From positions 1-41,872 of the IMG/VR virus record IMGVR_UViG_3300050033_000199: DNA of 41,872 nucleotides; one strand, written 5' to 3'. The stretch comes from a virus. Every line of letters begins with the position of its first letter. Within the stretch, counting starts at the first letter, position 1. Positions 5,333 to 28,534 of the stretch are shown here, piece by piece. The position numbers were made by a program, and so were the translations under genes. The notes under the pieces were generated by a model that saw only the letters and a program-made list of their open reading frames with translations, had not been told where the DNA came from and did not search any database.

Positions 5333-5656
5333 ATGTTTCAACGACTCATAGCAAACTGGAAAACCACATCGGCAGGAGTTATAATGATTGTTGGGGCAAT
5401 AGTTCATTTGTATTTTAACCGACCACTTACCGAGCCGATGCTGATGATGGGTGTGACGGCTATTGTTGGAGGTCTTGGTCTGTTGTTCGCGGGCGATGCA
5501 AACGTAAGCTCAGTGGCTTCGGATAAAAACGCCGTCGCAGTTGACCGAATCAATACGTTCGGCCCAGACCCTGAGGCAGAAAAATTATCGGTGACTCCCA
5601 AGCCATTAGAGCCACCGGCAGAAACAAGACCACCGCCGACTGCCTCGGCGAAATGA
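5333..5656 (+). CDS. Two-helix membrane protein, holin candidate
   Basis: 107 residues. Two hydrophobic segments (about 13-28 and 36-53, GGLGLLFAGD) are followed by a Pro-rich polar tail (LEPPAETRPPPTASAK). It starts 5 nt after the previous gene and overlaps the start of the next by 4 bases (ATGA), so these genes are translated together. Topology, size and adjacency to peptidases fit a class II holin; no family-specific motif is visible. Confidence 0.65.
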   Translation: MFQRLIANWKTTSAGVIMIVGAIVHLYFNRPLTEPMLMMGVTAIVGGLGLLFAGDANVSSVASDKNAVAVDRINTFGPDPEAEKLSVTPKPLEPPAETRPPPTASAK

Positions 5657-7476
5657 ATAAAGACTACATTGACTTTGTTGCTCTTGGTGATATTCACGCC
5701 GGTAGCAAGGCGGCTGTTTGTGTTCCCGACATGGAGTTGTGCGGCGGCGGCTCATTCCGATACTCAGCCGCCCAGCGCGGCCTTTACGACGCATGGTGCA
5801 GACTGGCACAGGAGTGGGCAAATCCCGACGTGCTACTGGTCAACGGTGACGCCATCGAGGGGCAGGCGAGAAAAGAATCCGGCGTGCCCTGCTGGTCAAC
5901 CGACTTGGACGACCAGTTGCATTGCGCCGAGTTGTTGGTGAAGATGTTCGGAGCCAAGAAAACTTACGTCATCAACGGAACTGGTTATCACGTTGACGCC
6001 GGAGGAAAGAGCCTGGAATGTCATTTGGGCGACAGGCTTGGGGCTGAGAAGATTGGAATAGCTGGCGCACGGTCGGCAGAGGAGATCTTTCTAAATGTCG
6101 GCGGACTCACGTTCCACGCCGCGCATCACATCAGCATCGGGACAGGTTGGTATAAAACCACCCCGCTCGCTCGTGAACTGGTGTTTGCCTTGCTGAACGA
6201 GTCGGACTTTCACAAGACTGACGTTGTGCTGAGATGTCTTTCAGATGACACCGAAATCTTGACCCGTCGGGGGTGGAAAAACTATTTGCAGATTCTTGAC
6301 TCTGACGAGGTTGTTACGTTGAATCGAGAGAGTGAAGTTTTGGAGTGGAAAAGGATTAACGCCTTTACTTGGAACCGGGACTATTCGGAGATGGTTCGTT
6401 TTGAGGGCAAGGGTGTTGATATTCTTGTCACGCCCGATCATTCAATGGTTTATCGCCCGACATCGTTGGGGCCAGTTAGAACTCGTCCAGCCAAAGATTT
6501 TCTCAAATTAAACACATGGCTTCTTCCGGTTTCTGGAAAACTACCGAGGATTGGGGTTCGCGTACCCGATTCGGAAATCAAGTTGCTGGCTTGGGTGATC
6601 GCGGAGGGAAGCATGGCGGCAGGAAACAAAAGCAAGGGCTATCTAAAAAAGAACCAAGTGCGACTTTTTCAAAGACGCAGCAAGGCGCACTTAATTCGTG
6701 CCATCCTTGAAGAAGTTGGATTTGAATTTACCGAACACGAACGGAAAGACTGCGGTAAAAAACTTTTGGATTCCGGTGTTGAGTATCAGACCAACGAAAA
6801 CACTGTGGCTTTTTATTTGAAGCAGCCGTATTCATCCAAGATTATTGAACTTTTGAACGGAGAAAAGAACATCCCTGATTGGCTTATGGAAATGGACGGT
6901 AGACAGTTTGATTTGTTCTTTCGTGAATATGTCGAGGGTGATGGCCACTGTGAAACGGGACACCCGGAAAAGAATGGCAAGATTTTTACAGCCAACCGAG
7001 ATTTGGCAGACCGCTTGAACATTTTATTTTGCACGCACGGATTCAAATCTCAGGTTTCAGAAAGAGAGAAGTGGGGTAAAAAGAACTGGGCCGTGACCTA
7101 TGTAAGAAAACAGGAGGTTCACATGGTCAGGCCGTGCGCCACGCTGGTTCCTTATTCCGGGATTACTTGGTGCGTCAACACAAATAACGGGACGCTTTTA
7201 ACCCGCCGCAATGGGAAGGTGGCAATTGTTGGGAATAGCCACGTCCATTACTTTTGCGGCGTGGAATTTCACCGGCAACACGGCTACACGCTTCCCTGTT
7301 GGCAGCTTCGCACCCGTTACATGATGAAGAAGTCCGCCTTTGGCATGACGCCATCAATCGGGGCGATTCGATTCAGGATTTATCCCGGCGGCGAACTTCG
7401 GATAGACAAGCGGCTATTCAAAGTGGCCGAAGCAAAACCAAAGCTGTTCAAATATGAAGTCACAGAAACGGACTGA
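5653..7476 (+). CDS. Calcineurin-like metallophosphoesterase interrupted by an intein
   Basis: 607 residues, of which 195-528 are an intein. The spliced host protein would be 273 residues with metallophosphoesterase motifs in order: GDIHAGS (about 12-18), NGDAIEG, NGTGYH and, after the intein, SHVHYF, the GHxH-type metal ligand block. The intein sits exactly in front of SHVH, inside the last active-site motif, a usual choice because imprecise loss kills the enzyme. The family hydrolyses phosphoesters with two metal ions; the phage substrate is unknown. It overlaps its neighbours on both sides (ATGA upstream, 23 bases downstream), so it belongs to the same operon as the membrane proteins. Confidence 0.85.
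   Translation: MNKDYIDFVALGDIHAGSKAAVCVPDMELCGGGSFRYSAAQRGLYDAWCRLAQEWANPDVLLVNGDAIEGQARKESGVPCWSTDLDDQLHCAELLVKMFGAKKTYVINGTGYHVDAGGKSLECHLGDRLGAEKIGIAGARSAEEIFLNVGGLTFHAAHHISIGTGWYKTTPLARELVFALLNESDFHKTDVVLRCLSDDTEILTRRGWKNYLQILDSDEVVTLNRESEVLEWKRINAFTWNRDYSEMVRFEGKGVDILVTPDHSMVYRPTSLGPVRTRPAKDFLKLNTWLLPVSGKLPRIGVRVPDSEIKLLAWVIAEGSMAAGNKSKGYLKKNQVRLFQRRSKAHLIRAILEEVGFEFTEHERKDCGKKLLDSGVEYQTNENTVAFYLKQPYSSKIIELLNGEKNIPDWLMEMDGRQFDLFFREYVEGDGHCETGHPEKNGKIFTANRDLADRLNILFCTHGFKSQVSEREKWGKKNWAVTYVRKQEVHMVRPCATLVPYSGITWCVNTNNGTLLTRRNGKVAIVGNSHVHYFCGVEFHRQHGYTLPCWQLRTRYMMKKSAFGMTPSIGAIRFRIYPGGELRIDKRLFKVAEAKPKLFKYEVTETD
6235..7236 (+). other. Intein with LAGLIDADG homing endonuclease domain
   Basis: 334 residues inside the phosphoesterase. 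The N-terminal splice block starts C195-LSDDTEIL. Block B has T260-P-D-H263. The two LAGLIDADG helices are LLAWVIAEGS (311-320) and FFREYVEGDG (422-431), with the acidic metal ligands present. The C-terminal block starts near C507 and ends RRNGKVAIVGN528, followed by Ser as the +1 residue. The penultimate residue is Gly instead of the usual His; I know this variation from other phage inteins, so splicing is still expected. Both endonuclease motifs look intact, so the element may still be mobile. Confidence 0.9.
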
Positions 7477-7744: not shown

Positions 7745-7983
7745 CACAGCCGCTTTTCGATAAACCCGGCCAGCCGGTGATTGGGCATTACGAAAACCGA
7801 CCATCCGACCGGGAGAAGTTTGAATCAATGATGAAATTCCTTGGCTATTCGATTGTTGACGTAACGGCCAAACAAAAAAAGCCGACCAAAAAGAAGTTGA
7901 CAAAATCAAGGAAACGGGCAAGATTCAAACGCTGCACCGACAGTAAACAAACCGGAAAACTGAAAGGAAAATTATGTTGCTAA
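7741..7983 (+). CDS. Small basic protein of unknown function
   Basis: 80 residues from the ATG that overlaps the previous stop (ATGA). The N-terminal half is mixed (FDKPGQPVIGHYENRPSDREKF). The C-terminal 35 residues are very Lys/Arg-rich and end in LCC, so nucleic-acid or membrane-phospholipid contact is possible. It ends inside the start of the next small membrane gene, showing tight coupling. Confidence 0.5.
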   Translation: MTQPLFDKPGQPVIGHYENRPSDREKFESMMKFLGYSIVDVTAKQKKPTKKKLTKSRKRARFKRCTDSKQTGKLKGKLCC

Positions 7984-8135
7984 ATGTTCTCTATTGGGTG
8001 TTCCTCGTACTGGCTCTCGTTGGGATCTACTTTGACGAACCGGCCAATCCTCGCGGGCGATACGCTGCTCGTGGGTTTTGGGTGATATTGTTCATCATCA
8101 TTGGATTTCGCGCCTTCAAAATGTCGCTCGAGTAA
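7974..8135 (+). CDS. 53-residue two-helix membrane protein
   Basis: ATG at 7974 with an AAAGGA-type ribosome site just upstream and TAA at 8135. The product has two hydrophobic stretches (residues 3-20 and 35-45) separated by a short polar loop, DEPANPRGRYAARG, and a basic end. It overlaps the upstream gene by 10 bases and ends 4 bases before the peptidase gene. This is a typical arrangement for a lysis-cassette membrane component, perhaps a second holin or a pinholin. Function is inferred from topology only. Confidence 0.65.
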   Translation: MLLNVLYWVFLVLALVGIYFDEPANPRGRYAARGFWVILFIIIGFRAFKMSLE

Positions 8136-8139
8136 AGCC

Positions 8140-8898
8140 ATGAGAACCTTCAAGCTCGGCAAACTTCCCAAGCGCGAGGACAGACTAAAACGCACGCTGA
8201 AACTTTCGGCTGTCCTTCCCGTTCTTCCGCCCTTGCCGGCGGTTATTGATTGGACGGGCAAGGTTCCAGATTGGAAAATGCTCTGTAACGATTTGGTGGG
8301 CTGTTGCACATGTTCCGCCTCCGGCCATGCCGAAATGCTCTGGACTTCACAAGCCTCACAAGAATTCATCCCGACCGATGCTGACATTTTAACGGCCTAT
8401 GAAGCAGTGTCCGGCTACGACCCAAGCAAGACGGACGCGGACGGAAACAACCCGACCGACACGGGGGCGGACATGCTGACGGTGCAGAATTATTGGCGCA
8501 ATACAGGAATTGCCGGGCGCAAAATCGGGGCTTACGCCGCGTTGAACGTGGCCAAGCTGGACGATTTCAGGGCTTCGGTTTATCTCTTTGGCACGGCGAA
8601 CATCGGCATTCGGATGCCTCAATCGGCAATGGACGCAACCAATTCGGGCGCGATTTGGACTGAACTTGGCGACGGCGACATCATCGGTGGGCACGACATC
8701 ATTCTTGTGGCCTACGACGCCAACGGATTTTGGAGCATCACATGGGGTCAGAAGCAGTATATGACAAACGAATGGCTTCTGGGCTATGTGGATGAGGCAT
8801 ACTGCCCCTTCTCGCAGGACTTTATCAACGGAACAACCGGCATTTCTCCAAGCGGTTTTGAACTGGGAAAACTTCAGGCATATTTGGCCGCGCTTTAA
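8140..8898 (+). CDS. Papain-like (C1-type) cysteine peptidase of phage type
   Basis: 252 residues from the ATG at 8140. The block NDLVGCCTCSASGH (residues 50-63) matches the ND-x-x-G-D-C motif I know from phage peptidases of this type, with Cys56 as the likely nucleophile (GCC in place of GDC). The His motif is GGHDIILVAYD (His185), followed by a WSITWG block as expected for the papain fold. There is no signal peptide or cell-wall binding domain. It lies among membrane proteins and a second papain-like enzyme, so a role in lysis or in maturing a virion protein is plausible. The gene is followed by a strong terminator. Confidence 0.7.
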   Translation: MRTFKLGKLPKREDRLKRTLKLSAVLPVLPPLPAVIDWTGKVPDWKMLCNDLVGCCTCSASGHAEMLWTSQASQEFIPTDADILTAYEAVSGYDPSKTDADGNNPTDTGADMLTVQNYWRNTGIAGRKIGAYAALNVAKLDDFRASVYLFGTANIGIRMPQSAMDATNSGAIWTELGDGDIIGGHDIILVAYDANGFWSITWGQKQYMTNEWLLGYVDEAYCPFSQDFINGTTGISPSGFELGKLQAYLAAL

Positions 8899-10074: not shown

Positions 10075-10154
10075 TTTCCTGCGCCTTAATCGTGTTCCTG
10101 TTCAGCGCGAGCTTTCTCTGCGTGGTTACGGCGGTGTTGAAGTTACGCCGTTAA
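10071..10154 (+). CDS. 27-residue membrane peptide
   Basis: ATG at 10071 overlaps the previous stop (ATGA). The product is almost entirely hydrophobic (ISCALIVFLFSASFLCVV), ending in KLRR. It may be a lysis-associated micropeptide. It ends where the convergent minus-strand array ends. Support is limited to coupling and composition. Confidence 0.35.
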   Translation: MISCALIVFLFSASFLCVVTAVLKLRR

Positions 10155-10501
10155 ATTGTAGAACCTACTGCTCCATCTGCTAGGCGGCAATCTCGTGGTC
10201 TAAATATCACGTTAGCCGCGTTCCACTTTTCGGCGGCTTGTTGTTTTGACGGTTGCCATGCGTCGCGCTTTGGGGACTGCCAGTAGGTTTCGCAGTCCTC
10301 GTTTGGGCAGATGTAGCAAAATAGTTTGCGGCCCTCATCGAGGGTGGTCTCTTGGCGCACTGGCGAGAAGCCGCACGACCAACATTTGCAGACTTCCGGT
10401 CCCCATTTCTGACGCCCCACCAAGCATGAGGCGACGCGGCTAACAAATCGCTGATCCGCGACGCCGGGAACGCCCTCCAGTTTCAAAGTTTCTGTCCGCA
10501 T
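10151..10501 (-). CDS. Lar-like zinc-ribbon protein (restriction-alleviation type), last gene of the minus-strand array
   Basis: 116 residues from the ATG at 10501, which lies in the loop of an attC-like repeat. The first 25 residues (EGVPGVADQ, FVSR) are encoded by that repeat. The core has CKCWSCG, then FCYICPNEDC, then AAEKWN, the order seen in Lar/restriction-alleviation zinc ribbons (paired Cys knuckles followed by A...WN). In those families the protein protects phage or plasmid DNA from restriction; here the role is inferred. Its C-terminus runs into a GTTAGCC-type core at 10211. Confidence 0.6.
   Translation of the reverse strand: MRTETLKLEGVPGVADQRFVSRVASCLVGRQKWGPEVCKCWSCGFSPVRQETTLDEGRKLFCYICPNEDCETYWQSPKRDAWQPSKQQAAEKWNAANVIFRPRDCRLADGAVGSTI
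10205..10217. repeat. Possible attC right-hand core (half site)
   Basis: The sequence ATCACGTTAGCCG resembles the right end of the nearby attC-like sites and lies at the outer end of the Lar-like cassette. No matching left arm was found, so it may be a decayed site or chance. Confidence 0.35.
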
Positions 10502-10548
10502 ATTACGTTTTGGGATTTGCGCCGGCGCGGGATAGCTCCACGATGGCC
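10438..10548. repeat. attC-like site 1
   Basis: Left core GGCTAAC followed by AA; left arm GCTGATCCGCGACGCC. The right arm GGCGCGGGATAGC pairs imperfectly with it; the right core has decayed to GATGGCC. The loop holds the stop of the 48-residue gene and the start of the Lar-like gene. Confidence 0.65.
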
Positions 10549-10649
10549 AGAGGTTGCGGCAGGCCATGTTCCGCACCAAAGAATTTAGGACGGCCACGAA
10601 TAAAACGGATTTCACCCTTCATCATATCTTTGGATGGGCGTGATTTCAT
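10503..10649 (-). CDS. 48-residue protein of unknown function
   Basis: ATG at 10649 is preceded by an excellent ribosome site (AAAGGAGA) and overlaps the upstream stop. The product is basic, with IRFIRGRPKFFGAEHGLPQP. Its last 14 residues (AIVELSRAGANPKT) are encoded by the right arm and loop of attC-like site 1, and it stops 1 base before the Lar-like start. Function unknown. Confidence 0.6.
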   Translation of the reverse strand: MKSRPSKDMMKGEIRFIRGRPKFFGAEHGLPQPLAIVELSRAGANPKT

Positions 10650-10966
10650 TGTTTGTTCTCCTTTACTGCGTCTATGGCGAGACTGTGTTTACATTTCCCC
10701 CAAGAACATCCGCAGATTTCACAAAGCAGTTGAACACTTCCTTTTGGAAAGATTGGCTCGCTTGTATGTTCTTTCTTAAACTGTCTCAACTCCTTCAACT
10801 CGTCCTCAAGTGTGGCGGCGTATTCGGTAAGGGCTTGTTTAAAACAAGCAAGTAATCCAATTTGGTCTTTAGTATCAACAAATGTATCTGGACTTTCAGA
10901 TTCACTATGCAACCATTCGTTAAAATACCTCTCCGCAATCGCTTGTTTTGTTTCGGTGGGGGTCAT
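10646..10966 (-). CDS. Small acidic/coiled-coil protein with Cys-rich tail
   Basis: 106 residues from the ATG at 10966, preceded by AAAGGAGA. The middle (about 45-72: LTEYAATLEDELKELRQFKKE) is predicted coiled coil. The tail has LCEICGCSWGKCKH, a Cys/His cluster that could bind zinc. It overlaps the start of the next small gene and follows the coiled-coil gene directly. Unknown early phage accessory protein. Confidence 0.6.
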   Translation of the reverse strand: MTPTETKQAIAERYFNEWLHSESESPDTFVDTKDQIGLLACFKQALTEYAATLEDELKELRQFKKEHTSEPIFPKGSVQLLCEICGCSWGKCKHSLAIDAVKENKQ

Positions 10967-10967
10967 G

Positions 10968-11234
10968 TCATTCTCCTTTCGATAGTTGGTTGAAGTGGGC
11001 GAGGGCTTCACAGTCTTTATGTAAAAGTCCAGTAGAAGTCCACGCGGCATTAAGTGTTTTTGCCAACCCCTCCGCGCATTGCTTCCATTGGTCACGTTCA
11101 GTATAAATTTGGTTGAGATAATCGCTGCAACCCATAAAAACATGACTACTCAAACAATCTTGATGAACAACGGTAATATGTTTTGCTTTCGCCTCACTCA
11201 ACTCTCTTTTCAATTTTTCAAGTTCTGTTTCCAT
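10968..11234 (-). CDS. Small coiled-coil protein
   Basis: 88 residues. The N-terminal METELEKLKRELSEAKAK is a clear coiled coil, followed by a mixed segment with HVFMGCSDYL and a second helical stretch around ERDQWKQCAEGLAKTLNAAW. No family is recognised. It starts inside the end of the HTH gene and ends 1 base before the next ATG, consistent with an operon. Confidence 0.6.
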   Translation of the reverse strand: METELEKLKRELSEAKAKHITVVHQDCLSSHVFMGCSDYLNQIYTERDQWKQCAEGLAKTLNAAWTSTGLLHKDCEALAHFNQLSKGE

Positions 11235-11328
11235 TGTTCCTCACTTTCTTTTTCCAGTAGCAAATTACAGGGCTACTAACGCCAATGGCTTTTGCCATTT
11301 TTGAAATGCTAACTCCGCCGGCAATCAT
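11218..11328 (-). CDS. Minimal helix-turn-helix protein
   Basis: 36 residues from ATG 11328, with GGA 7 nt upstream. It contains a compact HTH: GVSISKMAKAIGVSSPVICYWKK. It overlaps the end of the VRR-NUC gene by 20 bases in another frame. The frame stays open further upstream, so a longer form is possible. It may act as a regulator or as a DNA-binding partner of the nuclease. Confidence 0.45.
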   Translation of the reverse strand: MIAGGVSISKMAKAIGVSSPVICYWKKKVRNNGNRT

Positions 11329-11623
11329 TTGCAAGTCCAATTTGTTCGGGGCGAAGTTTTCCGGCTTTGCTTTTGGCTTCAATGAAAAATACGCGACCTT
11401 TATCAGCCAAAATTGTGAAATCAGGCTCACCAATTGTTCTCATGGCGCGATGAACCATAGACCCGTGAAACGCCAACCACCCGCGCTTCTTGCTCTCGGC
11501 TATTATTGAAGCATGAAGCGAGGATTCACGGTCAACCGCGCACAGCGTTCTATTTTCTGGTGGAAGTTTGGGTGCAACCCTCGCCTGCATCTCGGCGAAT
11601 TGGGCTGGGGTTATTGTGCTCAT
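11309..11623 (-). CDS. VRR-NUC domain nuclease
   Basis: 104 residues. The block ESSLHASIIAESKKRGWLAFH, then GEPDFTILADKGRVFFIEAKSKAGKL and RPEQ fits the VRR-NUC fold (PD-(D/E)XK superfamily): Glu in the first helix, Asp of PDF, and E-x-K (IEAK) as metal and catalytic residues. Phage VRR-NUC proteins act as Holliday-junction resolvases or structure-specific nucleases. It begins with an ATG that overlaps the upstream stop by 4 bases, and is part of the early minus-strand operon. Confidence 0.8.
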   Translation of the reverse strand: MSTITPAQFAEMQARVAPKLPPENRTLCAVDRESSLHASIIAESKKRGWLAFHGSMVHRAMRTIGEPDFTILADKGRVFFIEAKSKAGKLRPEQIGLANDCRRS

Positions 11624-11820
11624 AATTCTGTTGAATAATTTATATCAAATTGCGCCTGTCCCATTTCAATCATGTTTCCAGATGGCATTTTTACCAAAAC
11701 ACGATTGAACAGATTTCGATTCACAATCTCTACCGTAAACCCGTGCAGCCGATGACGCCAAATAGCGCGGGGTTGTTTGGCTTCAACTTTCGCAATCAGT
11801 TTTAAGGCTTCGGGAGTCAT
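11620..11820 (-). CDS. 66-residue protein of unknown function
   Basis: ATG at 11820 overlaps the methylase-like gene by 38 bases, next to an attC-like right half-site. The product is basic and beta-rich (RLHGFTVEIVNRNLFNRVLVKMPSG). No family is recognised. Confidence 0.5.
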   Translation of the reverse strand: MTPEALKLIAKVEAKQPRAIWRHRLHGFTVEIVNRNLFNRVLVKMPSGNMIEMGQAQFDINYSTEL

Positions 11821-12541
11821 TGCCGTCGCGGGATAGCTCGTCGTTAGGGCGCGTTGCGCGAGTCCACTGGTCGGCCATAGCTTCAGCTATTCCGGTGTAG
11901 GTTCGGCTTCGGTCTTTCGCCCGCGTTGCGGAAGGCGGCATTTTATGGATTCGCGCTTCCCGGCCTTCCGGTTCGGGCAGCGCAAACAGATCGTCGCGGC
12001 GATGAGTCGGTTCGAGTTCTGGCAGTCCGCGCAGCCAGAGGCAGGTTTGTTTGCATTCGCCGTGGCCGAACATCCACGGCTGGATTACCTGCGTCCACTC
12101 GCCCATGATTTCCCTGGCCTTGATGTAGGGAAGCGGATTTTCCCCGGCGCGATGCGGGATTTTATCGAAGTCGAGCAGTCGGCGAAATTTGTTGGCCATG
12201 TCTTTCATGGCGACTCGGCGTTCCTCCATGTAGAGACATTTGGGATTTGGATTCATCGGTCTTTGATACAGCCATCGTGCGCCGGAGCGAGTCGCAAAGG
12301 TGCAGGGCCAAAAGAAAAGCAGGATGTCCCAATCTTCGTCGAGATGTTTGAACACATCATCCTGGATATGGTTGCCATCCCGCTCGCTGGGTTCCAGGTC
12401 ACACGACCACGCATCCCACCCGCGAGCAGCGAAGGCGTCACGGACTATTCCAGAAAATTCGCACGCCACCAAAACGCGCCCTAACAACCGCATGGAGCCA
12501 ACGGCGGTTGCGCCTGGCAGTGAGATTTCAGCAGTGTTCAT
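11783..12541 (-). CDS. DNA cytosine methylase-like protein (phage type)
   Basis: 252 residues from ATG 12541, in the loop of attC-like site 2. The usual family start (RVLVACEFSGIVRDAF) would fit an internal ATG at 12493, where the attC core itself encodes MRLLGRV. Family features: RVLVACEFSG (cofactor-binding loop), D-L-E-PSER, WPCTFAT (a PC motif with Trp for the usual Pro), ENPLPY, IQPWMFGHGECKQTCLW, LPELEPTH, RTYTGIAEAMADQW. I know this set from phage cytosine-5 methylases or their inactive relatives. The C-terminal tail (RPNDELSRDGNDS) is encoded by the next attC-like half site. Probable role: masking phage DNA from restriction. Confidence 0.75.
   Translation of the reverse strand: MNTAEISLPGATAVGSMRLLGRVLVACEFSGIVRDAFAARGWDAWSCDLEPSERDGNHIQDDVFKHLDEDWDILLFFWPCTFATRSGARWLYQRPMNPNPKCLYMEERRVAMKDMANKFRRLLDFDKIPHRAGENPLPYIKAREIMGEWTQVIQPWMFGHGECKQTCLWLRGLPELEPTHRRDDLFALPEPEGREARIHKMPPSATRAKDRSRTYTGIAEAMADQWTRATRPNDELSRDGNDSRSLKTDCES
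11822..11849. repeat. attC-like right half-site
   Basis: GCCGTCGCGGGATAGC followed by a GTTAGGG core at 11843. It closely resembles the right half of attC-like site 1. No matching left arm with TAACAA was found within 250 bp, so the site seems truncated. The methylase-like gene reads through it. Confidence 0.5.
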
Positions 12542-12582
12542 GGTTTGCGTTATTCGCGCCGTGGTTCAGCTTTGCGTTAGCA
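12479..12582. repeat. attC-like site 2
   Basis: Left core CCCTAAC followed by AA, right core GTTAGCA. The arms (GGAGCCAACGGCG on the left, CGCCGTGGTTCAGC on the right) pair with a mismatch and unpaired bases in the left arm. The loop holds the stop of one gene (12528) and the ATG of the methylase-like gene (12541). Confidence 0.75.
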
Positions 12583-12872
12583 GGCTCGGCCACGGCTTCT
12601 GTTTCCTCGAAAGCATAAGCCTGTCGGAGTGTGTTGTAGCCGTTCAGGAGCATCGTCACGTTTCGGCTGGAGTAGTGCTTGAGATTGCTCCCATCGAAGA
12701 CATAGACCTTGCCGGTCACTGTGCCGTGTTCTTTGCATCCCCGCCGGCAGAGGTATGACTTGCCGGCAGTTGGCCGGAATGAGTTTTTGTGCCACCATGC
12801 CATTTCTGCGCCGGTGAGTTGGTTGAGTCGCTTTCCGTATCCAGTTGGTGTTTCGGTTGTGTTCATGTTCAT
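12528..12872 (-). CDS. Unknown protein in attC-flanked cassette
   Basis: 114 residues from ATG 12872; a second ATG two codons later is equally possible. The central part has WWHKNSFRPTAGKSYLCRRGCKEHG and VYVFDGSN, suggesting a small beta fold with a possible zinc knuckle (C-x3-C). The C-terminal 19 residues (ending NANHEHC) are encoded by the right arm and loop of attC-like site 2. It starts 7 bases after the 40-residue gene. No family recognised. Confidence 0.55.
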   Translation of the reverse strand: MNMNTTETPTGYGKRLNQLTGAEMAWWHKNSFRPTAGKSYLCRRGCKEHGTVTGKVYVFDGSNLKHYSSRNVTMLLNGYNTLRQAYAFEETEAVAEPANAKLNHGANNANHEHC

Positions 12873-12879
12873 TTTGCTT

Positions 12880-13002
12880 TCAGTATTTTGGTGCTTTTTC
12901 AAAGGCTTCACTAAACCAGCGATGTGTCGCCCAGTCCTCACGTTGCGCTTGTGCCAGTCCAAGCCACCACATCAGCAGTTCTCGTTTTGTGTATATGTGC
13001 AT
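12880..13002 (-). CDS. 40-residue aromatic-rich protein
   Basis: ATG at 13002, TGA at 12880. The composition is unusually Trp-rich (MWWLGLAQAQREDWATHRWF) and predicted helical, which is unlikely for random sequence. It starts 15 bases past the left core of attC-like site 3 and ends 7 bases before the next ATG. Function unknown. Confidence 0.5.
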   Translation of the reverse strand: MHIYTKRELLMWWLGLAQAQREDWATHRWFSEAFEKAPKY

Positions 13003-13016
13003 ATCGTTGATTCGCC

Positions 13017-13106
13017 TGCTAACAACCGCATGAAGCCAATGCGGGATAGCGTCTTTATTTCATTTGTGAGTCATCAGTCCCGCATGGCTTATGCGGAGCG
13101 TTAGAG
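13017..13106. repeat. attC-like site 3
   Basis: Left core TGCTAAC followed by AA, right core GTTAGAG. The left arm (13026-13046) and right arm (13078-13096) pair over 19 bp with no mismatch, leaving one G and one A unpaired in the left arm, 5 nt apart. The upstream gene stops in the loop at 13055. Confidence 0.88.
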
Positions 13107-13645
13107 GTCGTGACGAGCGCGTGATACATTTCGCAAGCAGGGCATGTGTGCTTTTCTCCAGGGCCACCACCACCGCAGGTGCAGCACGCTGTTACCGCAC
13201 GGGTGATGTCCATTTTCGAGTATCGCGGTTCACGATCTCTAACAACTCCCTGCACCGCGACGGCGGGAGTTCCTTCAGGTTGGTTGGTCGCTTTCCGCAT
13301 ATTATATTTTGGTTCATCGCCGCCGCGGGTGAGGTCGGCGTTAGACGGCTTGAGCACTATTGCCATTTTTTCACCGTGAACATTTTCTCCGCCGCCGTCT
13401 TTGCAGGCCACGAAATAGTTGCCATCGGCCACCGGGTAGCTTCCAACCACTTCGGCGCACATGAGGCCGGGATTGCCGACGACTCCCCCAATGCGCGACC
13501 GCACTATTTCCATTCCCGCCTTCAGACTTTTGACGGCCACGAGCATTACCTTTGGCCCGTAGAACCGTCTAACAAGTCGCTCCAGACGACGCTGATTGGC
13601 GTCTCCAGTTTGCCGGGAGCGTTTGAGGTTGATGGGTGGCTTCAT
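13055..13645 (-). CDS. Two-cassette in-frame fusion, C-terminal part a zinc-knuckle domain
   Basis: 196 residues from ATG 13645 in the loop of attC-like site 5, reading straight through attC-like site 4. The N-terminal leader (RRLERLV) is encoded by site 5. Domain one includes GGVVGNPGLMCAEVVGSYPVADG and NYFVACKDGG (unrecognised, beta-rich). The region PSNADLTRGGDEPKYN is site 4 sequence. A second start, MRKATNQPEGTPAVA, lies in site 4's loop (13299) and would give an 81-residue protein with CCTCGGGGPGEKHTCPAC, a likely zinc knuckle. The locus may therefore make both a fusion and an internally started protein. The opposite strand is also open, but its residues show no domain-like pattern. Confidence 0.5.
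   Translation of the reverse strand: MKPPINLKRSRQTGDANQRRLERLVRRFYGPKVMLVAVKSLKAGMEIVRSRIGGVVGNPGLMCAEVVGSYPVADGNYFVACKDGGGENVHGEKMAIVLKPSNADLTRGGDEPKYNMRKATNQPEGTPAVAVQGVVRDREPRYSKMDITRAVTACCTCGGGGPGEKHTCPACEMYHALVTTSNAPHKPCGTDDSQMK
13237..13346. repeat. attC-like site 4
   Basis: Left core CTCTAAC followed by AA, right core GTTAGAC. The arms CTGCACCGCGACGGCGG and CGCCGCCGCGGGTGAGG pair with a G and an A extra on the left and a small bulge on the right. The loop has an in-frame ATG (minus strand, 13299). Confidence 0.75.
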
Positions 13646-13671
13646 AGGCGCGTCTGAGCTAATCGTTAGCC
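13567..13671. repeat. attC-like site 5
   Basis: Left core GTCTAAC followed by AA, right core GTTAGCC. The arms GCTCCAGACGACGC (13579-13592) and GCGTCTGAGC (13650-13659) pair with unpaired C and A in the left arm. A minus-strand ATG (13645) lies at the loop edge. Confidence 0.87.
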
Positions 13672-13992
13672 CCGCCAAGCATCACCACGAGCGATGGACT
13701 TTATTGATTCCCAGCAGGCGACCAGTGATTGTCCGTCGGTTGGTTCATTGTCCATTGAGCCGTTGATGGTGCTTTGTGTGGCTGTGTCATTTTCGGCTGT
13801 CTTGATAATTTGTTCGATTTCTTTGGTATCGTAGTTCCCATCCAGCGACAGGGCTACACGCATGTGCTCTCGGAACGTTCGGGCAGGGCTAACAACGCGC
13901 TGGAGGCAATCGGGACTACCCGCTCCGATTTCCAATCCTTCTTCGGCCTTCGCTCGTTCCATGAGCCATTTCCTTGGTATGCGGTATTTCAT
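13666..13992 (-). CDS. Unknown helical protein in attC-flanked cassette
   Basis: 108 residues from ATG 13992 in the loop of attC-like site 6; a second Met at residue 11 is possible. Residues encoded by the site's left arm read CLQRVVSP. The rest is acidic and helical (SLDGNYDTKEIEQIIKTAEND, VACWESIKSIARG), and the stop is inside the right core of site 5. No family recognised. Confidence 0.5.
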   Translation of the reverse strand: MKYRIPRKWLMERAKAEEGLEIGAGSPDCLQRVVSPARTFREHMRVALSLDGNYDTKEIEQIIKTAENDTATQSTINGSMDNEPTDGQSLVACWESIKSIARGDAWRG

Positions 13993-14022
13993 CGTCCCGA
14001 TGCCTCAGCTTGGTCGTTAAGA
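13887..14022. repeat. attC-like site 6
   Basis: Left core GGCTAAC followed by AA, right core GTTAAGA. The left arm GCTGGAGGCAATCGGGA (13899-13915) and right arm TCCCGATGCCTCAGC (13995-14009) pair over 15 bp with no mismatch, with unpaired G and A in the left arm. This is the longest loop of the set. Confidence 0.9.
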
Positions 14023-14241
14023 TGCGGCAGCACGTTCCCACGCCCTTTTCCTTGTTGAACCGCCGCCGATGCAGAGGTCGATTTTTGTGCCGGTGAAGAT
14101 ACACCAGACATCCACGATTCTTTTCGCGTAGGCAGTTGGAAGTCTTGCGAGCACGTTTGCCTTTGCCGCGGGCCGCATCTTAACAACTCCATGCAGGCGA
14201 CGTGAGGAACGCTTTCCAGTTTTCGATTGCCTTGATTTCAT
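14017..14241 (-). CDS. Small basic protein in attC-flanked cassette
   Basis: 74 residues from ATG 14241 in the loop of attC-like site 7. The leader MKSRQSKTGKRSSRRLHGVV resembles the leader of the gene at 15732 (MKSKSKTKKRNPGRLERLV), both encoded by attC left arms. The remainder includes LARLPTAYAKRIVDVWCIFTG and DLCIGGGSTRKRAWE. It stops in the right core of site 6. No family recognised. Confidence 0.5.
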   Translation of the reverse strand: MKSRQSKTGKRSSRRLHGVVKMRPAAKANVLARLPTAYAKRIVDVWCIFTGTKIDLCIGGGSTRKRAWERAAAS

Positions 14242-14298
14242 ATTTACGGTTTTCGTTGTGCCGAGTCAGGTGACACGCGCCTGATGTCGGCGTTGGGC
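14178..14298. repeat. attC-like site 7
   Basis: Left core TCTTAAC followed by AA, right core GTTGGGC, a perfect GTTRRRY. The arms ATGCAGGCGACGTG (14191-14204) and CACGCGCCTGAT (14274-14285) pair over 12 bp with no mismatch, with unpaired G and A on the left. Confidence 0.9.
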
Positions 14299-14585
14299 GG
14301 ATTGTGCATTGTCCGAAATTCACGGGCGGCTTTTATGACTTTCCGCATGTGTTCCTCGGCGGAGGCGCCTGATGCAAAAGCGGGTTTGCTACTCACTATC
14401 GGCCTGCCTTCTAGCGTCGTGATGAAGCCCGCATATTTTCCAGAATTATCCGGGCCAGCGTGTGTTACAGACATCGAGTCGCCCTCAGACCATTTAAGAT
14501 TGAGCACAGTGCCAAGCGTAAGACCGCCCAACAAATCCTTGGAGGCAATGGCGTCTGCCCATTGAGTTTCAGCATCATTTTTCAT
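14244..14585 (-). CDS. Unknown protein in attC-flanked cassette
   Basis: 113 residues from ATG 14585 in the loop of attC-like site 8. The left arm of the site encodes ASKDLLGG. The body contains LNLKWSEGDSMSVTHAGPDN and ITTLEGRPIVSSKPAF (probably a small beta domain), then a helical KVIKAAREFRTM. The last 15 residues come from the right arm of site 7. No family recognised. Confidence 0.55.
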   Translation of the reverse strand: MKNDAETQWADAIASKDLLGGLTLGTVLNLKWSEGDSMSVTHAGPDNSGKYAGFITTLEGRPIVSSKPAFASGASAEEHMRKVIKAAREFRTMHNPPNADIRRVSPDSAQRKP

Positions 14586-14647
14586 CGGTCATTTCCTTTG
14601 GTTGCGAGGCACGGTTTCCGACGCCATGCCTCAAGTCTGCGTTAGGT
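14526..14647. repeat. attC-like site 8
   Basis: Left core GCCCAAC (perfect RYYYAAC) followed by AA, right core GTTAGGT (perfect GTTRRRY). The left arm CTTGGAGGCAATGGCGTC (14538-14555) and right arm GACGCCATGCCTCAAG (14620-14635) pair over 16 bp with no mismatch, with unpaired G and A on the left. Confidence 0.93.
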
Positions 14648-14656
14648 GTCCTTGCA

Positions 14657-15484
14657 TCACAGTATCGGGAGCGGTTCGTCTTTCGCCCATTTCAGGACGC
14701 CAGGACGTGTTCCGTTATGGTATGACTTGAAAGCCTTGATGGTGATGCCGAACACATAGCCAGCATTGAGCTTGGATTTGTTGCCACGATTTGCGATAAG
14801 CCGATTCCGCAGATCGCCAGCGGCAGACGCACCACCTTCGAGATAGACTTTTTGCAGGAAGTCTTTCGCCTTTTCAAGATACCCATTTCGAGACGATGCC
14901 AGCGTGAAGATGGCCCCGCCGATGGAAAGGGGAAGCAGTTTGGTTTGACGATAGAGCGGATTCACAAAAGACGCAGCTTCGCCAAGCACGGCTTGGTTGC
15001 TGATACAGTAGTCAATCAGTTCGCACTGCGTCGGGAACTGATTCCCATTTCCCCGACTTTGCGCTTCGCTGCCGCAGCGGTCGGCGGGATATAACACGGA
15101 TGATTCGTAGGCTTGAACCCAATGCGCGATTGACGGGATTGATTTCGCAAACGGCATACCAATGAGGCCATCCGACACGGACCGGCGGAGTCCAGCGTCT
15201 ATCACCTTGTAGAGTTCTTCGTCGTTTGTTTCCATGACCAAGAATTGTTGAGGCTTGCCAGACAGCACGACGGCAGACAGCCGGTGCTGTCCGTTGGCGA
15301 GCTTGCCTTTGATCCTCAAGATTGCGTCAGGGCTGATTTTGAACCGGCCAGCATCCATGTCAGAAGCGAGACGCTTCACATGGGCGTTTCGGACGGTGCG
15401 TTGTAATTCCCAGCGGTCGGCGAGCCATTCGGTTGCGATTTCAGGAGTTATTTTTTGCAGTTCTGCGGTTGCGTTTGTTTTCAT
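14657..15484 (-). CDS. DGQHR/ParB-like phage protein
   Basis: 275 residues from ATG 15484; the frame is open upstream to 15643 but lacks protein-like sequence there. The N-terminal part (ITPEIATEWLADR, NAHVKRLASDMDAGRF, LANGQHRLSAVVLSG) matches the ParB/sulfiredoxin-like fold with its GQHR nucleotide-binding motif. VIDAGLRRSVSD follows, as in phage members of this group. These relate to DNA modification and DNA-binding enzymes, but the phage versions have no settled function. It shares a cassette (between sites 8 and 9) with the 72-residue gene upstream. Confidence 0.7.
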   Translation of the reverse strand: MKTNATAELQKITPEIATEWLADRWELQRTVRNAHVKRLASDMDAGRFKISPDAILRIKGKLANGQHRLSAVVLSGKPQQFLVMETNDEELYKVIDAGLRRSVSDGLIGMPFAKSIPSIAHWVQAYESSVLYPADRCGSEAQSRGNGNQFPTQCELIDYCISNQAVLGEAASFVNPLYRQTKLLPLSIGGAIFTLASSRNGYLEKAKDFLQKVYLEGGASAAGDLRNRLIANRGNKSKLNAGYVFGITIKAFKSYHNGTRPGVLKWAKDEPLPIL

Positions 15485-15513
15485 GTTTTTGGTCTTTCGT
15501 TTTTGTTGTTTAT

Positions 15514-15732
15514 CTATTTGCAAATTGACGGACACCTTGACTCTTTGAATACGAAGATTCGGTTTATTTTTGCATCCATATTCCTTTTGACCCATGTGTG
15601 GTCTTTTGCGGCGTGCTGTGCTTCCGATAGCACCTTGAGGCATACGGCCAGCAGCAGGCGTTCGGACGCACCGCTAACAAGTCGCTCAAGACGACCCGGA
15701 TTACGCTTTTTAGTTTTCGATTTGGATTTCAT
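15514..15732 (-). CDS. 72-residue protein with attC-encoded leader
   Basis: ATG 15732 lies in the loop of attC-like site 9 and the left arm encodes RNPGRLERLVSG. The body (ASERLLLAVCLKVLSEAQHAAKD, TWVKRNMDAKINRIFVF) is helical and basic. It is the promoter-proximal gene of the attC-punctuated block. No family recognised. Confidence 0.5.
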   Translation of the reverse strand: MKSKSKTKKRNPGRLERLVSGASERLLLAVCLKVLSEAQHAAKDHTWVKRNMDAKINRIFVFKESRCPSICK

Positions 15733-15779
15733 AAAATTTGTATGTCAATTGCCGGGCGTCTTAGCTCCGCACGTTCAAA
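15672..15779. repeat. attC-like site 9, upstream boundary of the array
   Basis: Left core CGCTAAC followed by AA. The left arm GCTCAAGACGACCCGG (15684-15699) and right arm CCGGGCGTCTTAGC (15752-15765) pair over 14 bp with no mismatch, with unpaired C and A on the left. The right core has decayed to GTTCAAA and lies 3 bases from the exonuclease stop. Confidence 0.87.
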
Positions 15780-15781
15780 AC

Positions 15782-16780
15782 TCAAGGCATCGGCACGTCA
15801 TTGTTTTCGGTCGGTTGTGGCGCGGGTTGATAGTCGTCTTTTGCCGTCAATGCGCCCTGTCCAGCCATCTGCCGATATGACCAAAGCGATTCCGGGCCTA
15901 TGAGTTGCATTGGGCCGAATGGCAGTCCGAATACGCGGTAAGATGGCCAGTGGTTAGTGGCCAAGCATTGCGCGTAATACGCGAGCGCGGACTGATATTT
16001 CAATCGGCCCCAAGTTAAAAACTCGGCGGTCATTGCGGGCATTGGTTTCGTAACATGCCAGGGTTCGGTGTTTTCAGAAAGAGGAAACACCCAGTCGGTG
16101 CGGTCTTGTTTAGTTGCTTCCTTGAACATATCCATTCCAAGCGCGGCCTGAATGTCGTAACCTTCATCATTAATCACGCGGCAGAAGGTTTCCGGGTCGC
16201 CGTTGCGGGCGGTTTTGCTGTCTGCCAGCGACTTTCCCCACGTCGGATGTTTCGAGTCCGGCACAAGGTCGAGCAGGCAACGAACGGGGATGTCCAGACT
16301 GCTGACTTTGAATTCGCCAGTGACCATCACTTGCTTTTTTGAGCACGCGATTAATTCGACGCGCGGGGCATAGGATTGCGCGGTTTTGGCGGCAGCTTCG
16401 GCTTCGAGTGCAACTTCCGGTTTGATAACAGTTTTGTCTTTCTGCGATTCAACCCAGTCCTTGCACCAAGACGAATTCAGGTTGAACGGCTTCGGCTCGC
16501 CCGTCTTTTTGTCGGGATAAGTTTCGGGACGAATGACAAAGAGGTCGTCGAATGTGCCGGGGGACATTTCCAGACATTCAAAAAGCCTGCCGAAGATGGT
16601 CGCTGGCGTGTCGGGAGAATTCTTGCTGGCCAGCCATTTTTCTGGATTAACAGCAAACGCGACAATTTCAGAGCGCGACATAATAAACGCGGGGTCGCCG
16701 CGTTTCACGCCGGGCACTTGGCGGGAATAAACTTCGTAGCTGATTCCATCGCCGATTACTTTGCAGTTGATGAAGCTCAT
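15782..16780 (-). CDS. PD-(D/E)XK exonuclease, RecE/exodeoxyribonuclease VIII-like
   Basis: 332 residues from ATG 16780; a TTG at 16789 overlapping the previous stop would add three. The N-terminal part has Y-S-R, MSRSEIVAFAVNPEKWLA and ATIFGRLFECLEMSPGTFDDLFV, as in RecE/YqaJ-type phage nucleases (GxxxHxxxL-like first helix). Later come VMVTGEFKVSSLDIPVRCLLDLVPD and LADSKTARNGDPETF, with D and D-x-K as the catalytic pair, then the YDIQAALGMDMF helix. It degrades double-stranded DNA ends for recombination. It sits next to a Sak4-like ATPase, forming a recombination module. Confidence 0.8.
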   Translation of the reverse strand: MSFINCKVIGDGISYEVYSRQVPGVKRGDPAFIMSRSEIVAFAVNPEKWLASKNSPDTPATIFGRLFECLEMSPGTFDDLFVIRPETYPDKKTGEPKPFNLNSSWCKDWVESQKDKTVIKPEVALEAEAAAKTAQSYAPRVELIACSKKQVMVTGEFKVSSLDIPVRCLLDLVPDSKHPTWGKSLADSKTARNGDPETFCRVINDEGYDIQAALGMDMFKEATKQDRTDWVFPLSENTEPWHVTKPMPAMTAEFLTWGRLKYQSALAYYAQCLATNHWPSYRVFGLPFGPMQLIGPESLWSYRQMAGQGALTAKDDYQPAPQPTENNDVPMP

Positions 16781-16785
16781 GGTTT

Positions 16786-17028
16786 TCAATCAGTAAAAAC
16801 GGCGACGATTGTGAGTCCGCTTTCATCTTGAGAGGTGACATGTATGGAATCGCCAACCCATTCGGTTTTTTTCTGACAATCGGGAAGCAGCGCCTCTTTG
16901 AAGCGATTGAAGGCGGAAGGTTTCACATGAAAATGATTAAAATCAATCGCGGTTATGTCGTTGTCAATATGAAGTGCGGTGACTTCAGCCAATTTGGTTT
17001 TGAACTGTTGAATCTGTTCTTTTGTCAT
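16786..17028 (-). CDS. Small protein between recombination genes
   Basis: 80 residues, starting 5 bases after the Sak4-like gene stop. It has a helical N-terminus (KEQIQQFKTKLAEVTALH) followed by a beta-rich domain (EWVGDSIHVTSQDESGLTIVAVF). No family recognised; a role in recombination or as a single-strand DNA-associated factor is only suggested by its neighbours. Confidence 0.6.
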   Translation of the reverse strand: MTKEQIQQFKTKLAEVTALHIDNDITAIDFNHFHVKPSAFNRFKEALLPDCQKKTEWVGDSIHVTSQDESGLTIVAVFTD

Positions 17029-17033
17029 AATTT

Positions 17034-18062
17034 TTATCGTTTGCTAGTTAAAACTTCCCGCGCCTTGGCAATCACTTCGCGGAATCGTTCGGTCGTTAGG
17101 TCGGGTGCGCGTTCGGCTGGCTCTTTAGCGGCGTCCAAGATTTCCTCGCGCCAAAGCCATTCGTTTGCCTTGTCCCACGTCTTGACGCCCGGCGTTCGGA
17201 CTGGCTTCAAAACCGTCCAAAGCTCGATTTCAAGCTCTTTTAGGGTTTTGGCATCCGATTTTACGCCCTGCATGCCCGTGGGCGCATTTTGATTGGACGG
17301 GCTAGTAGATGGAACGCTCCCACTGGCAATCGTGGCAGGCTGGCCAGCCTGGTTACACCACGCCCCAAGCAATTCGCCGTGGTGAACCGTAATCGGGGTG
17401 GTTTTGTCCTTGGGAAAACAATCACGCAAAGAGGGGTGCGAACACTTCGTCAGGATAATGGAATGATTTTGCAAGATTTCAAAGTGGCAGGTCGCCTCGA
17501 AAATGAAGTCGTCGGCCTGAATGGGTGAAGTTTTGTCGTCCTTTAAGATGACGGTTTTACCGTTTTCCTTGGTCTGCCGCGATTTGTATTTAGCCCGCAG
17601 ACAGACGATGAATGGAATTTTTGTCCGCTGCAATCGCTGAACAAACTTCGCGTGCTCGAACTTCGGTTGGCGCCAGCAATGCAGTCCTGTCTTGCCGCTT
17701 TTTGCTTCAATCTCCGTCGCCATGTCGAGGACGGAGCCTGGGCCGTCCCATTCGTGGCTTCCGCTGTCAATGATGCCGACCGCTGCGCCGGATGTCTCGA
17801 TTGTATCAATCGCCTCGACATAACGGGCGGGCGTGAATGGTGCGCACAGGTCAAAGGTTTCAAATCCGTCCGGCAACACGTCGGCGTAAAGGCTGGCGCG
17901 GCCTGACTCCGAATCGGCCACGACAATTTTGCCCTTTGGCCCGGCCAGTCCGCGCGCCAACAAAAGGCTGGAATAAGTTTTGCCGCAACCGCTTTCCGAA
18001 TATGCGACGATCAGCGGGCTAATGCCGCGCCGTGTCGCCTGTTGTATTTTGAATTCACTCAT
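17034..18062 (-). CDS. Sak4-like RecA-fold ATPase (AAA_24 type)
   Basis: 342 residues. Walker A reads SESGCGKT (22-29), with Ser in place of the first Gly. KIVVADSESGRA follows, then Walker B-like AAVGIIDSGSHEW and the sensor-like IPFIVCLRAKYKSRQ, the order seen in phage Sak4/AAA_24 recombination ATPases. The C-terminal third is low-complexity (TIASGSVPSTSPSNQNAP) and then helical. Such proteins promote single-strand annealing or exchange together with a phage nuclease, matching the PD-(D/E)XK exonuclease two genes downstream. Confidence 0.85.
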   Translation of the reverse strand: MSEFKIQQATRRGISPLIVAYSESGCGKTYSSLLLARGLAGPKGKIVVADSESGRASLYADVLPDGFETFDLCAPFTPARYVEAIDTIETSGAAVGIIDSGSHEWDGPGSVLDMATEIEAKSGKTGLHCWRQPKFEHAKFVQRLQRTKIPFIVCLRAKYKSRQTKENGKTVILKDDKTSPIQADDFIFEATCHFEILQNHSIILTKCSHPSLRDCFPKDKTTPITVHHGELLGAWCNQAGQPATIASGSVPSTSPSNQNAPTGMQGVKSDAKTLKELEIELWTVLKPVRTPGVKTWDKANEWLWREEILDAAKEPAERAPDLTTERFREVIAKAREVLTSKR

Positions 18063-18826: not shown

Positions 18827-19522
18827 TTATAGGTTGAAGTTCTCGGCCTCCAGTTTGGTTATGAAAAAGTGAATCCCGCTTGAACATTCATTGTTGTAAT
18901 CATCGTCGAATTTCTCTTTAGGCTTAACTGTTTTCCCCGCCTCATAGAAAAACTCGCAATCGTTTTGGCTGACGCCTTTTCTAGCGCCAACAACTTCGAG
19001 CACCTTTGCAAATTCGGCGCGACATTTCCGCCCAAAAGCGTGGCTGCGTTTTGCATTTGCCGGGATTAGAAGTTTTACCAAAACATTATCACGGCATTTT
19101 TTCCAGACAATCAAATCTCCTTCGGGCAATATGCGCGTTGAGGCGATTGCAAAATCGGCGTCTTTTGCGCCTGACAGGTTTGCGCCTGACAGGTTTGCGC
19201 CTGACAGGTTTGCGCGTGACAGGTCTGCGCGTGACAGGTCTGCGCCTGGCAGGTCTGCGCGTGACAGGTCTGCGCCTGGCAGGTCTGCGCATGACAGGTC
19301 TGCGCCTGACAGGTTTGCGCGTGACAGGTTTGCGCGTGACAGGTCTGCGCCTGACAGGTTTGCGCATGACAGGTCTGCGCCTGACAGGTTTGCGCGTGAC
19401 AGGTCTGCGCCTGACAGGTCTGCGCCTGACTTGACTGCCGCTTTTACTGCGTCGGCTAGTGATGAAAAATCGCCTTCAAACAGAATTGACCCGGCGATGG
19501 ATTTAATTTGGATTTTTGCCAT
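18827..19522 (-). CDS. Pentapeptide-repeat protein
   Basis: 231 residues. The N-terminal domain ([23 protein letters not shown]) precedes about 18 perfect A(D/N)LSx pentapeptides (residues about 33-120), then a non-repeat C-terminal domain ([36 protein letters not shown]). Pentapeptide repeats form a right-handed quadrilateral beta-helix; in gyrase-protecting members it mimics DNA. The layout of a short N-terminal domain, repeats and a C-terminal domain is common in phage early proteins of unknown function. The repeat DNA is almost identical from unit to unit, so copy number is likely to vary. Confidence 0.85.
19166..19433. repeat. 15-bp tandem repeat array coding for pentapeptides
   Basis: About 18 units of the form GCGCSTGRCAGGTYT with few differences, in frame with the pentapeptide gene on the minus strand. 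The long plus-strand frames through it are by-products of the repeat. Confidence 0.9.
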
Positions 19523-25327: not shown

Positions 25328-25809
25328 ACGAACCACTTCCAGCAACGATTGATGGCCGGTCGCTGGCGAAGCTGACCGGCTACACCTGGCGCTGGATTCA
25401 GGAGCAAGCCGAGCGCGGCATTGTGAAGAAAACTGGACGCGGGGAATTTGATTTTGCTGGCAGCATCCAGGGAATAATCAATTTCCTAAAACAGAAAGAT
25501 GAGCCAGCGCGCGAGCGATTGACCAAGGCGCAGGCCAGCCGGGAGGAAAGAATAGACCGGGCCGAGGCCGGCGAGGAAATAAAACTGGAAGTGGCAAAAT
25601 CAGATTGGTCAAATGTCGTGCTGATGTTTCGCCAGCGAATGATTTCAGTCGGGAATAATGTGGAATCAAAGTGTGGCCTAACCGAAGCGCAGCGGAAATC
25701 AATCGAACAGGAAATATCCGACGGGCTGCGGGAGCTTGAAAAGAAAATGACCTGCAAGGCGGAAGAAATCGAGCAGGAAGAAAATGAACGCGCGAGCCAA
25801 ACTGCATAA
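25324..25809 (+). CDS. terS: Terminase small subunit
   Basis: 161 residues. The N-terminal winged HTH (DGRSLAKLTGYTWRWIQEQA, then ERGIVKKTGRGEFD) is as in Nu1/DUF1441-type small terminases. A long charged helical oligomerisation region (ARERLTKAQASREERIDRAE) and a final helix follow. It binds the packaging site and hands DNA to the large subunit. It overlaps the large terminase by 26 bases. Confidence 0.8.
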   Translation: MNEPLPATIDGRSLAKLTGYTWRWIQEQAERGIVKKTGRGEFDFAGSIQGIINFLKQKDEPARERLTKAQASREERIDRAEAGEEIKLEVAKSDWSNVVLMFRQRMISVGNNVESKCGLTEAQRKSIEQEISDGLRELEKKMTCKAEEIEQEENERASQTA

Positions 25810-27904: not shown

Positions 27905-28534
27905 ATGCTGACACCTCGAAATTACGAGCCGACTGAAATCACGGCGGGCGACACGCTAACCTTTCAGCGTTCCATTGGAAAATACCCTGCATCCGCCGGC
28001 TGGCAGCTAACCTATGAGCTTCGCGGTCGCGCTCAAGCCATCGAATTCACCTCCGTCGCAAGTGGAGACTCTCACGTTATAACTGTTCCAGCGGCAACAA
28101 CGGCTTCGTGGCTTCCCGGAGCGTATGAGCTTGAGGGCTACGCTGGAAACATTGCAACAGGCGAGCGCGAGCGAATCTTCATCAACAACCTCACCATCAA
28201 CCGAAATCTTGAAGGCGCGGCGGGTGATATTTCGGTAACGACTCACGCGCAGCGGATGATTGCTCTAATTGAGGCCGTTCAGGAGGGCAAGGCCACCCAT
28301 GATTTACTCGAAAGCGAAGTCGAGGGCACACGAATTAAAAGGCTTTCTCCCAAAGAACTGCGCGAAGAATACAATTACTGGAAACAAATGCGGCAGAATG
28401 AGGTTCGCGCGGCTGATTCGCTGGCCGGTCGAAGCAGTGGACGGAATCGTTTCGCGGTATTTACAGATCCGAACGGGGCCAGCATCGGCCAGTTTGGAGC
28501 GTTGCCTCCGATATTTCCCGGTGAACATTTATGA
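27905..28534 (+). CDS. gpW-like head-tail joining protein with N-terminal beta domain
   Basis: 209 residues. Residues 1-100 are a beta-rich domain (EITAGDTLTFQRSIG, AYELEGYAG). From about 110 the pattern AQRMIALIEAVQEGKATHD and the IKRLSPKELREEYNYWKQM helix matches the small W-like joining proteins encoded between terminase and portal. Fusion with an extra beta domain is unusual but is seen with lambda-type gene order. It overlaps the portal start (ATGA). Confidence 0.6.
   Translation: MLTPRNYEPTEITAGDTLTFQRSIGKYPASAGWQLTYELRGRAQAIEFTSVASGDSHVITVPAATTASWLPGAYELEGYAGNIATGERERIFINNLTINRNLEGAAGDISVTTHAQRMIALIEAVQEGKATHDLLESEVEGTRIKRLSPKELREEYNYWKQMRQNEVRAADSLAGRSSGRNRFAVFTDPNGASIGQFGALPPIFPGEHL

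Follow-up and report, generated by a model that had tools for sequence, protein, structure and literature searches.

A probable integron cassette array with reversed genes in a tailed-phage early operon

Introduction

Integrons are usually viewed as bacterial elements with cassettes that depend on the integron promoter. The DNA analyzed in this study, the 41,872 bases of the linear IMG/VR virus contig IMGVR_UViG_3300050033_000199 (hereafter the window), raises the question of what a series of sites resembling attC, the recombination site of integron cassettes, is doing within the leftward (minus-strand) early operon of a phage. The contig exhibits the hallmark genes of a tailed phage, namely those for the terminase large subunit (TerL; 25784-27802), the portal (28531-30189) and an HK97-type capsid protein (30216-32150). 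A preliminary description of the sequence had proposed that this phage carries a cassette array, an idea which is supported by the attC scores and by the varied cargo of related phages reported below. The region is most probably an integron cassette cluster in which the genes are reversed and which is exchanged by the activity of an integron integrase (estimated probability roughly 0.87). The phage group in question is represented by metagenomic contigs only and all interpretations given here are drawn from sequence.

Results

The repeated elements of the array are attC sites. They were compared with known sites using a covariance model built from 18 attCs of a class 1 integron, Vibrio, Acidobacteriota, Planctomycetota and phage TJE1, none being from the phage group of the window. 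When the whole window was scanned on both strands with filters off, the nine best matches were exactly the nine sites of the preliminary description, every one of them on the plus strand. Eight of these had E-values of at most 0.014 (1.2e-7 to 0.014, all E-values being rough), and the ninth, at 12479, was at background like the tenth-ranked match (8.4 bits). A check by covariance model had been suggested along with the sites themselves, and the scores of these eight lie far above background. A second test used a hand-made scanner that rates the cores, the pairing of the arms and extra left-arm bases. Six window sites reached 23.7-29.6, alongside 26.8-32.1 for class 1 integron attCs and about 21-26 for Vibrio attCs; dinucleotide-shuffled versions of the window contained about 0.25 matches with a score of at least 23 per window. 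A scan of the window against Rfam yielded no matches; to our knowledge Rfam holds no attC model. A strict attC consensus pattern matched two bacterial genomes and none of the viral contigs.

Single unpaired bases were found in the left arm (R''-L'') on the plus strand, which corresponds to the canonical attC polarity, and at the top sites the left arm exceeds the right one by one or two such bases. Folds and scanner agree here with the preliminary description, which had placed these bases always in the left arm. The bottom strand of the site at 13017 folds at -23 kcal/mol. The additional claim that every site ends in a GTTRRRY-like core holds only in part. Six sites retain good stems and cores, while this core (R') is lost at 10438 and degenerate at 15672 (GTTCAAA at 15773). 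At the weak site 12479 the left half resembles that of 13017 and the right half that of a site at 27794 in the phage contig G004; it appears to be a chimera of two attC types with poorly pairing halves. An orphan right half-site (11822-11849) shares an 18-nt repeat with 10521-10538 and shows 13 nt of end complementarity with 12479. The features of the array are listed below from left to right.

10211..10217, plus strand: left array end, crossover core GTTAGCC lacking an attC (boundary of secondary or attI-like type)
10211-10212: start of cassette 1, matching the reverse complement of the 10438 attC start exactly over 11 nt
10151..10501, minus strand: cassette 1 gene, open reading frame (ORF) of 116 aa, Cys-rich, ATG inside attC 1
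10438..10548, plus strand: attC 1, R' core lost (23.3 bits, E 0.0013)
11822..11849, plus strand: orphan attC right half (L'-R'); cassette 2 begins with GTT at 11843
11783..12541, minus strand: cassette 2 gene, DNA methyltransferase (phrog_757, E 8e-50), ATG at 12541 or 12493, both within attC 2
12479..12582, plus strand: attC 2, apparently chimeric, weak (9.7 bits, E 3.1)
12528..12872, minus strand: cassette 3 gene, ORF of 114 aa, ending within attC 2
13017..13106, plus strand: attC 3 (25.2 bits, E 4e-4); 10-nt complementarity to the cassette 3 start
13055..13645, minus strand: cassettes 5 and 4, one open frame of 196 aa, ATG at 13645 (attC 5), second ATG at 13300 (attC 4)
13237..13346, plus strand: attC 4 (32.2 bits, E 8e-6)
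13567..13671, plus strand: attC 5 (39.5 bits, E 1.2e-7)
13666..13992, minus strand: cassette 6 gene, 108 aa, start in the attC 6 loop (from ORF and core coordinates)
13887..14022, plus strand: attC 6 (19.1 bits, E 0.014)
14017..14241, minus strand: cassette 7 gene, 74 aa, start in the attC 7 loop (from ORF and core coordinates)
14178..14298, plus strand: attC 7 (28.4 bits, E 7e-5), 13-nt end complementarity
14244..14585, minus strand: cassette 8 gene, ORF of 113 aa, start in the attC 8 loop
14526..14647, plus strand: attC 8 (27.0 bits, E 1.5e-4)
14657..15484, minus strand: phrog_5931 gene (function unknown) between attC 8 and attC 9 (E 9e-34 for the longer ORF 14657-15643)
15514..15732, minus strand: small ORF of 72 aa starting in attC 9 (53% identity to an ORF of contig L081, E 4e-17)
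15672..15779, plus strand: attC 9, degenerate R', right array end (23.1 bits, E 0.0014 for 15676-15775)

The start of an integron cassette is complementary to the start of its own attC, because it completes this attC in the free circular cassette. In the window this complementarity extends over 11, 13, 10, 7, 9, 8, 13 and 9 nt, and only the last pair, with 5 complementary nt, fails the end test. Across seven phage contigs (including the window) an end match of at least 7 nt was found in 39 of 50 neighbouring pairs versus 16 of the 518 remaining pairs (Fisher P about 2e-37). Each start complements its own attC start and not those of others, which would be expected of units that had each been closed into a circle at one time.

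Traces of such movement were found between phages. Cassette 2 (11843-12582) is also present in two other, largely unrelated phage contigs, L250 and L081. Starting exactly at the crossover point G|TT, the window (from 11843) and L250 (from 10699) are identical over 61 of 61 nt, whereas their upstream DNA is unrelated; the L250 DNA ahead of the shared cassette resembles a right half-site from a different attC. For the L081 copy the homology begins at the same crossover base and amounts to 93% over 76 nt. The three methyltransferase cassettes (window 11843-12582, L250 10699-11451, L081 about 7951-8663) form a mosaic with near-identical ends and a diverged middle, the latter perhaps having been exchanged or diversified. 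The contigs G002 and G003, whose TerL proteins are 92% identical, differ by a whole unit: in G003 an N6/N4 methyltransferase cassette, the ends of which are complementary over 12 nt, separates terL from its neighbour, and G002 shows no more than about 110 bp at this place. A 123-bp attC shared by G004 and L183 is 96% identical and the homology ends at both cores, with unrelated methyltransferases attached. Near-identical attC bodies on unrelated methyltransferases, the homology stopping at the core sites, were noticed at L165 9508-9636 and L183 about 3024-3146 and at L179 3746-3850 and 6954-7058. Related phages carry sites of this kind around differing cargo, and not the unchanged gene content that the preliminary description had named as speaking against a cassette array.

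That description was right about the array, yet it overlooked that the genes are reversed and start inside attC sites. The recognisable cassette genes of the window lie on the strand opposite to the attC polarity. Orientation was called by a codon score trained per contig, which replaced a longest-ORF rule that left many ties in short cassettes. By this score six window cassettes are inverted, none is canonical and two are undecided; the canonical layout with the gene upstream of its attC was not found in the window. The seven phage contigs together comprise 28 inverted cassettes and one canonical cassette, as compared with three inverted and 49 canonical ones in the controls (a class 1 plasmid, a Vibrio phage, Acidobacteriota and Planctomycetota; Fisher P about 3e-17), with the bacterial controls spanning few phyla. 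An ATG within the attC that opens a frame exiting on the gene side is present at 47 of 57 sites in phages versus 11 of 74 in controls. All the window starts listed here, at 10501, 12541, 13300, 13645, 13992, 14241, 14585 and 15732, are inside attC sites, and the TAA stops of the cassette 6 and cassette 7 genes are provided by the R' cores of attC 5 and attC 6, respectively. The frame at 13055-13645 passes through attC 4 and thereby fuses two cassettes into one protein.

Integron integrases occur beside arrays of this kind in other phages. In G003 (TerL 66% identical to that of the window) an integron integrase gene (intI) is located at 10179-11225 on the minus strand. Its product matches TIGR02249 with an E-value of 7e-68 and 229 bits, short of the curated cut-off (265), its best solved relative is IntI4 (PDB 2a3v, E 2e-40), and the catalytic residues R, K, H, R, H and Y align with the bacterial ones. 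The first cassette adjoins intI at 11254, which is the usual geometry of intI and array, but the cassette genes read towards intI. An initial search with a single intI query matched only the query itself; the IntI alignment used instead retrieved 80 viral contigs. According to the attC model many viral intIs are adjoined by arrays, most of them inverted and a minority canonical. The ratio of inverted to canonical cassettes is 6:0 in L305, 4:0 in L280 and in L290, and 3:0 each in L313, L317, L292, L297 and L329. Phage hallmark genes were checked in a minority of these contigs, among which L317 and L271 possess terminase and portal genes around intI and L305 and L297 possess tail genes; the IntIs of these four exceed the TIGR02249 cut-off. 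In L317 (2632-11891) and L271 (8887-14122) intI was observed between terminase and portal or directly upstream of terminase, that is, in the packaging operon. One contig, L254, has canonical cassettes downstream of a co-directional intI. In an intI tree with limited bacterial sampling the phage intIs fall into several virus-only groups. A single origin for all inverted phage integrons was considered and is unsupported by this tree. One-way phage operons may select for layouts with intI and cargo pointing the same way.

The recognisable cargo consists mostly of methyltransferases from unrelated families: phrog_757 in the window, N6_N4 and Dam in G004, and N6_N4 in G003 and L179, with a weak Dam-like match in L180 and weak C5-like matches in L179 and L183. 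G004 additionally contains a DnaJ-domain protein. Anti-restriction would be the main use of these cassettes, a role likewise proposed by Qi et al. (2023; PMC9892861) for their phages. For the cassette 1 gene no family and no Pfam match was found; the idea that it might encode a restriction-alleviation (Lar) protein was dropped for want of Pfam support.

To its right the array is followed by further genes of the early operon.

15782-16789, early operon: exonuclease VIII-like gene
17034-18062, early operon: AAA ATPase gene

The AAA ATPase as query found no match among nine related contigs, and the phrog_5931 protein found none in viral_contigs. A pentapeptide-repeat protein with a DUF5758 C-terminus is encoded at 18827-19522, likewise in the early operon, and a 607-aa ORF at 5653-7476 resembles an intein-interrupted phosphoesterase, the LAGLIDADG match being weak.

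Discussion

The arrangement suggests a unit that consists of one attC and a short gene, the latter running against the direction seen in a normal cassette. In the direction of transcription the attC would come first, with the start codon in its loop, followed by the gene and a stop that often lies in the next attC. By acting on the folded attC strand, an integron integrase could add and remove such units and pass them among phages, possibly up to the present day. For the phage of the window this integrase would probably be supplied in trans, either by the host or by a phage carrying intI. The reversal would align inserted genes with the phage operon, from which they would be expressed using their own starts and without need of the integron promoter.

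Several observations weigh against such a living cassette array. No intI, and hence no complete integron, was found on the window contig, a linear and perhaps incomplete sequence. Damage is seen at three of the nine sites (10438, 12479 and 15672), and part of the array may consequently be frozen. Few of the starts inside attC sites are preceded by a ribosome-binding motif, and these few are unconvincing; moreover, the orientation of the shortest cassettes depends on a weak codon score. The missing intI, together with the chimeric and half sites and the open frame that crosses attC 4, would also fit with true former cassettes that are now fixed, their hairpins being kept for translation or for homologous recombination of the phage after integrase-driven exchange had ended in this lineage. 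We consider this unlikely, as good stems and cores were kept at six window sites, cassette 2 is common to other phages with 61 of 61 nt identical near its start, and G003 and its close relative differ by one whole cassette.

It is considerably less likely that the region is DNA from a chromosomal integron of the host, captured by the phage or joined to it during assembly, and thus an ordinary bacterial array in decay. Damaged attCs and the lack of intI on the contig would fit with this, and temperate phages do carry pieces of host integrons, as described by Qi et al. (2023; PMC9892861). However, the genes are reversed relative to bacterial arrays, even those beside intI of Planctomycetota and Acidobacteriota, the same design recurs in other phages inside operons near terminase and portal, and phage intIs form virus-only groups in the tree with its limited bacterial sampling. 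That the sites are non-recombining regulatory hairpins of the phage, translation or transcription signals which came to look like attC by convergence, is hardly credible, since starts in loops, stops often beside starts as in a translational-coupling device and the formation of attC-like hairpins in mRNA would be in line with it, but the pairing of cassette starts with their own attC only, the breakpoints between phages at exactly G|TT and the integron integrases beside such arrays would all be left unexplained.

With a cassette array subject to integrase-driven exchange as the preferred reading, a broader idea can be formulated, towards which we lean by a small degree. According to it, tailed phages possess an integron class of their own, in which the 5' attC acts as recombination site and gene start at once (and sometimes as stop of the preceding gene), intI is placed at the end of the operon and the cassettes, largely anti-restriction methyltransferases, are pooled among unrelated phages. 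Such a layout suits a one-way operon, with mobile sites built into reading frames, and would provide phages with a site-specific way of trading anti-restriction genes. It would also be a natural case of one attC answering to folding, cutting and coding together. The attC bodies that are identical but attached to unrelated genes, their homology stopping at the cores, bear on the open question of how genes acquire their attC.

Comparison with known systems

Arrays of attC sites in phages are as such already known. Among 10,705 phage genomes, Qi et al. (2023; PMC9892861) found 17 clusters of attC sites as well as four cases of integrons or integrases; of six phage attC sites that they tested, five were recombined by IntI1. 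The preliminary description was thus correct in recognizing a cassette array, and its remark that this would be unusual for a phage does not extend to a first case. Among the published examples are clusters of attC sites lacking integrases (CALINs) in the virulent phages TJE1, P12002L, PH101 and ctTUS972 (PMC9892861), which share attC arrays, methyltransferase cargo and the lack of a nearby integrase with the window. TJE1 shows the normal order of gene and then attC, whereas the genes of the window are reversed and start inside attC. The array of ctTUS972 (L186) appears to be reversed as well, a feature not mentioned in the accessible part of Qi et al. (PMC9892861). Literature searches turned up no description of reversed cassettes or of attC-internal starts, preprints and most subscription journals lying outside their coverage, and inverted, attC-embedded cassettes seem to represent a new variant.

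Complete integrons are present in temperate phages such as Vibrio phage Va_90-11-286_p16 and Shewanella phage M16-3, but these are derived from the host (PMC9892861), and the gene orientation in Va_90-11-286_p16 is mostly normal, unlike that of the window. Virus Rctr41k (KX853513) is similar in being a phage contig with intI, six attCs, methyltransferases and genes that are all co-directional with intI, but differs in that its cassettes are normal and that this co-direction results from the array being downstream of intI, a layout shared by L254. The respective region of Virus Rctr41k (L331, 4680-10101), with intI and six attCs in the same direction, is annotated only as xerD integrase-like. 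With the integrons of bacteria (class 1, Vibrio, Acidobacteriota and Planctomycetota) the phage arrays have in common the structure and polarity of attC, the complementary ends, the single-gene cassettes and an intI that faces the array. In bacteria, however, the genes follow the attC polarity and read away from intI, whereas those of the phages run in the opposite direction, towards intI.

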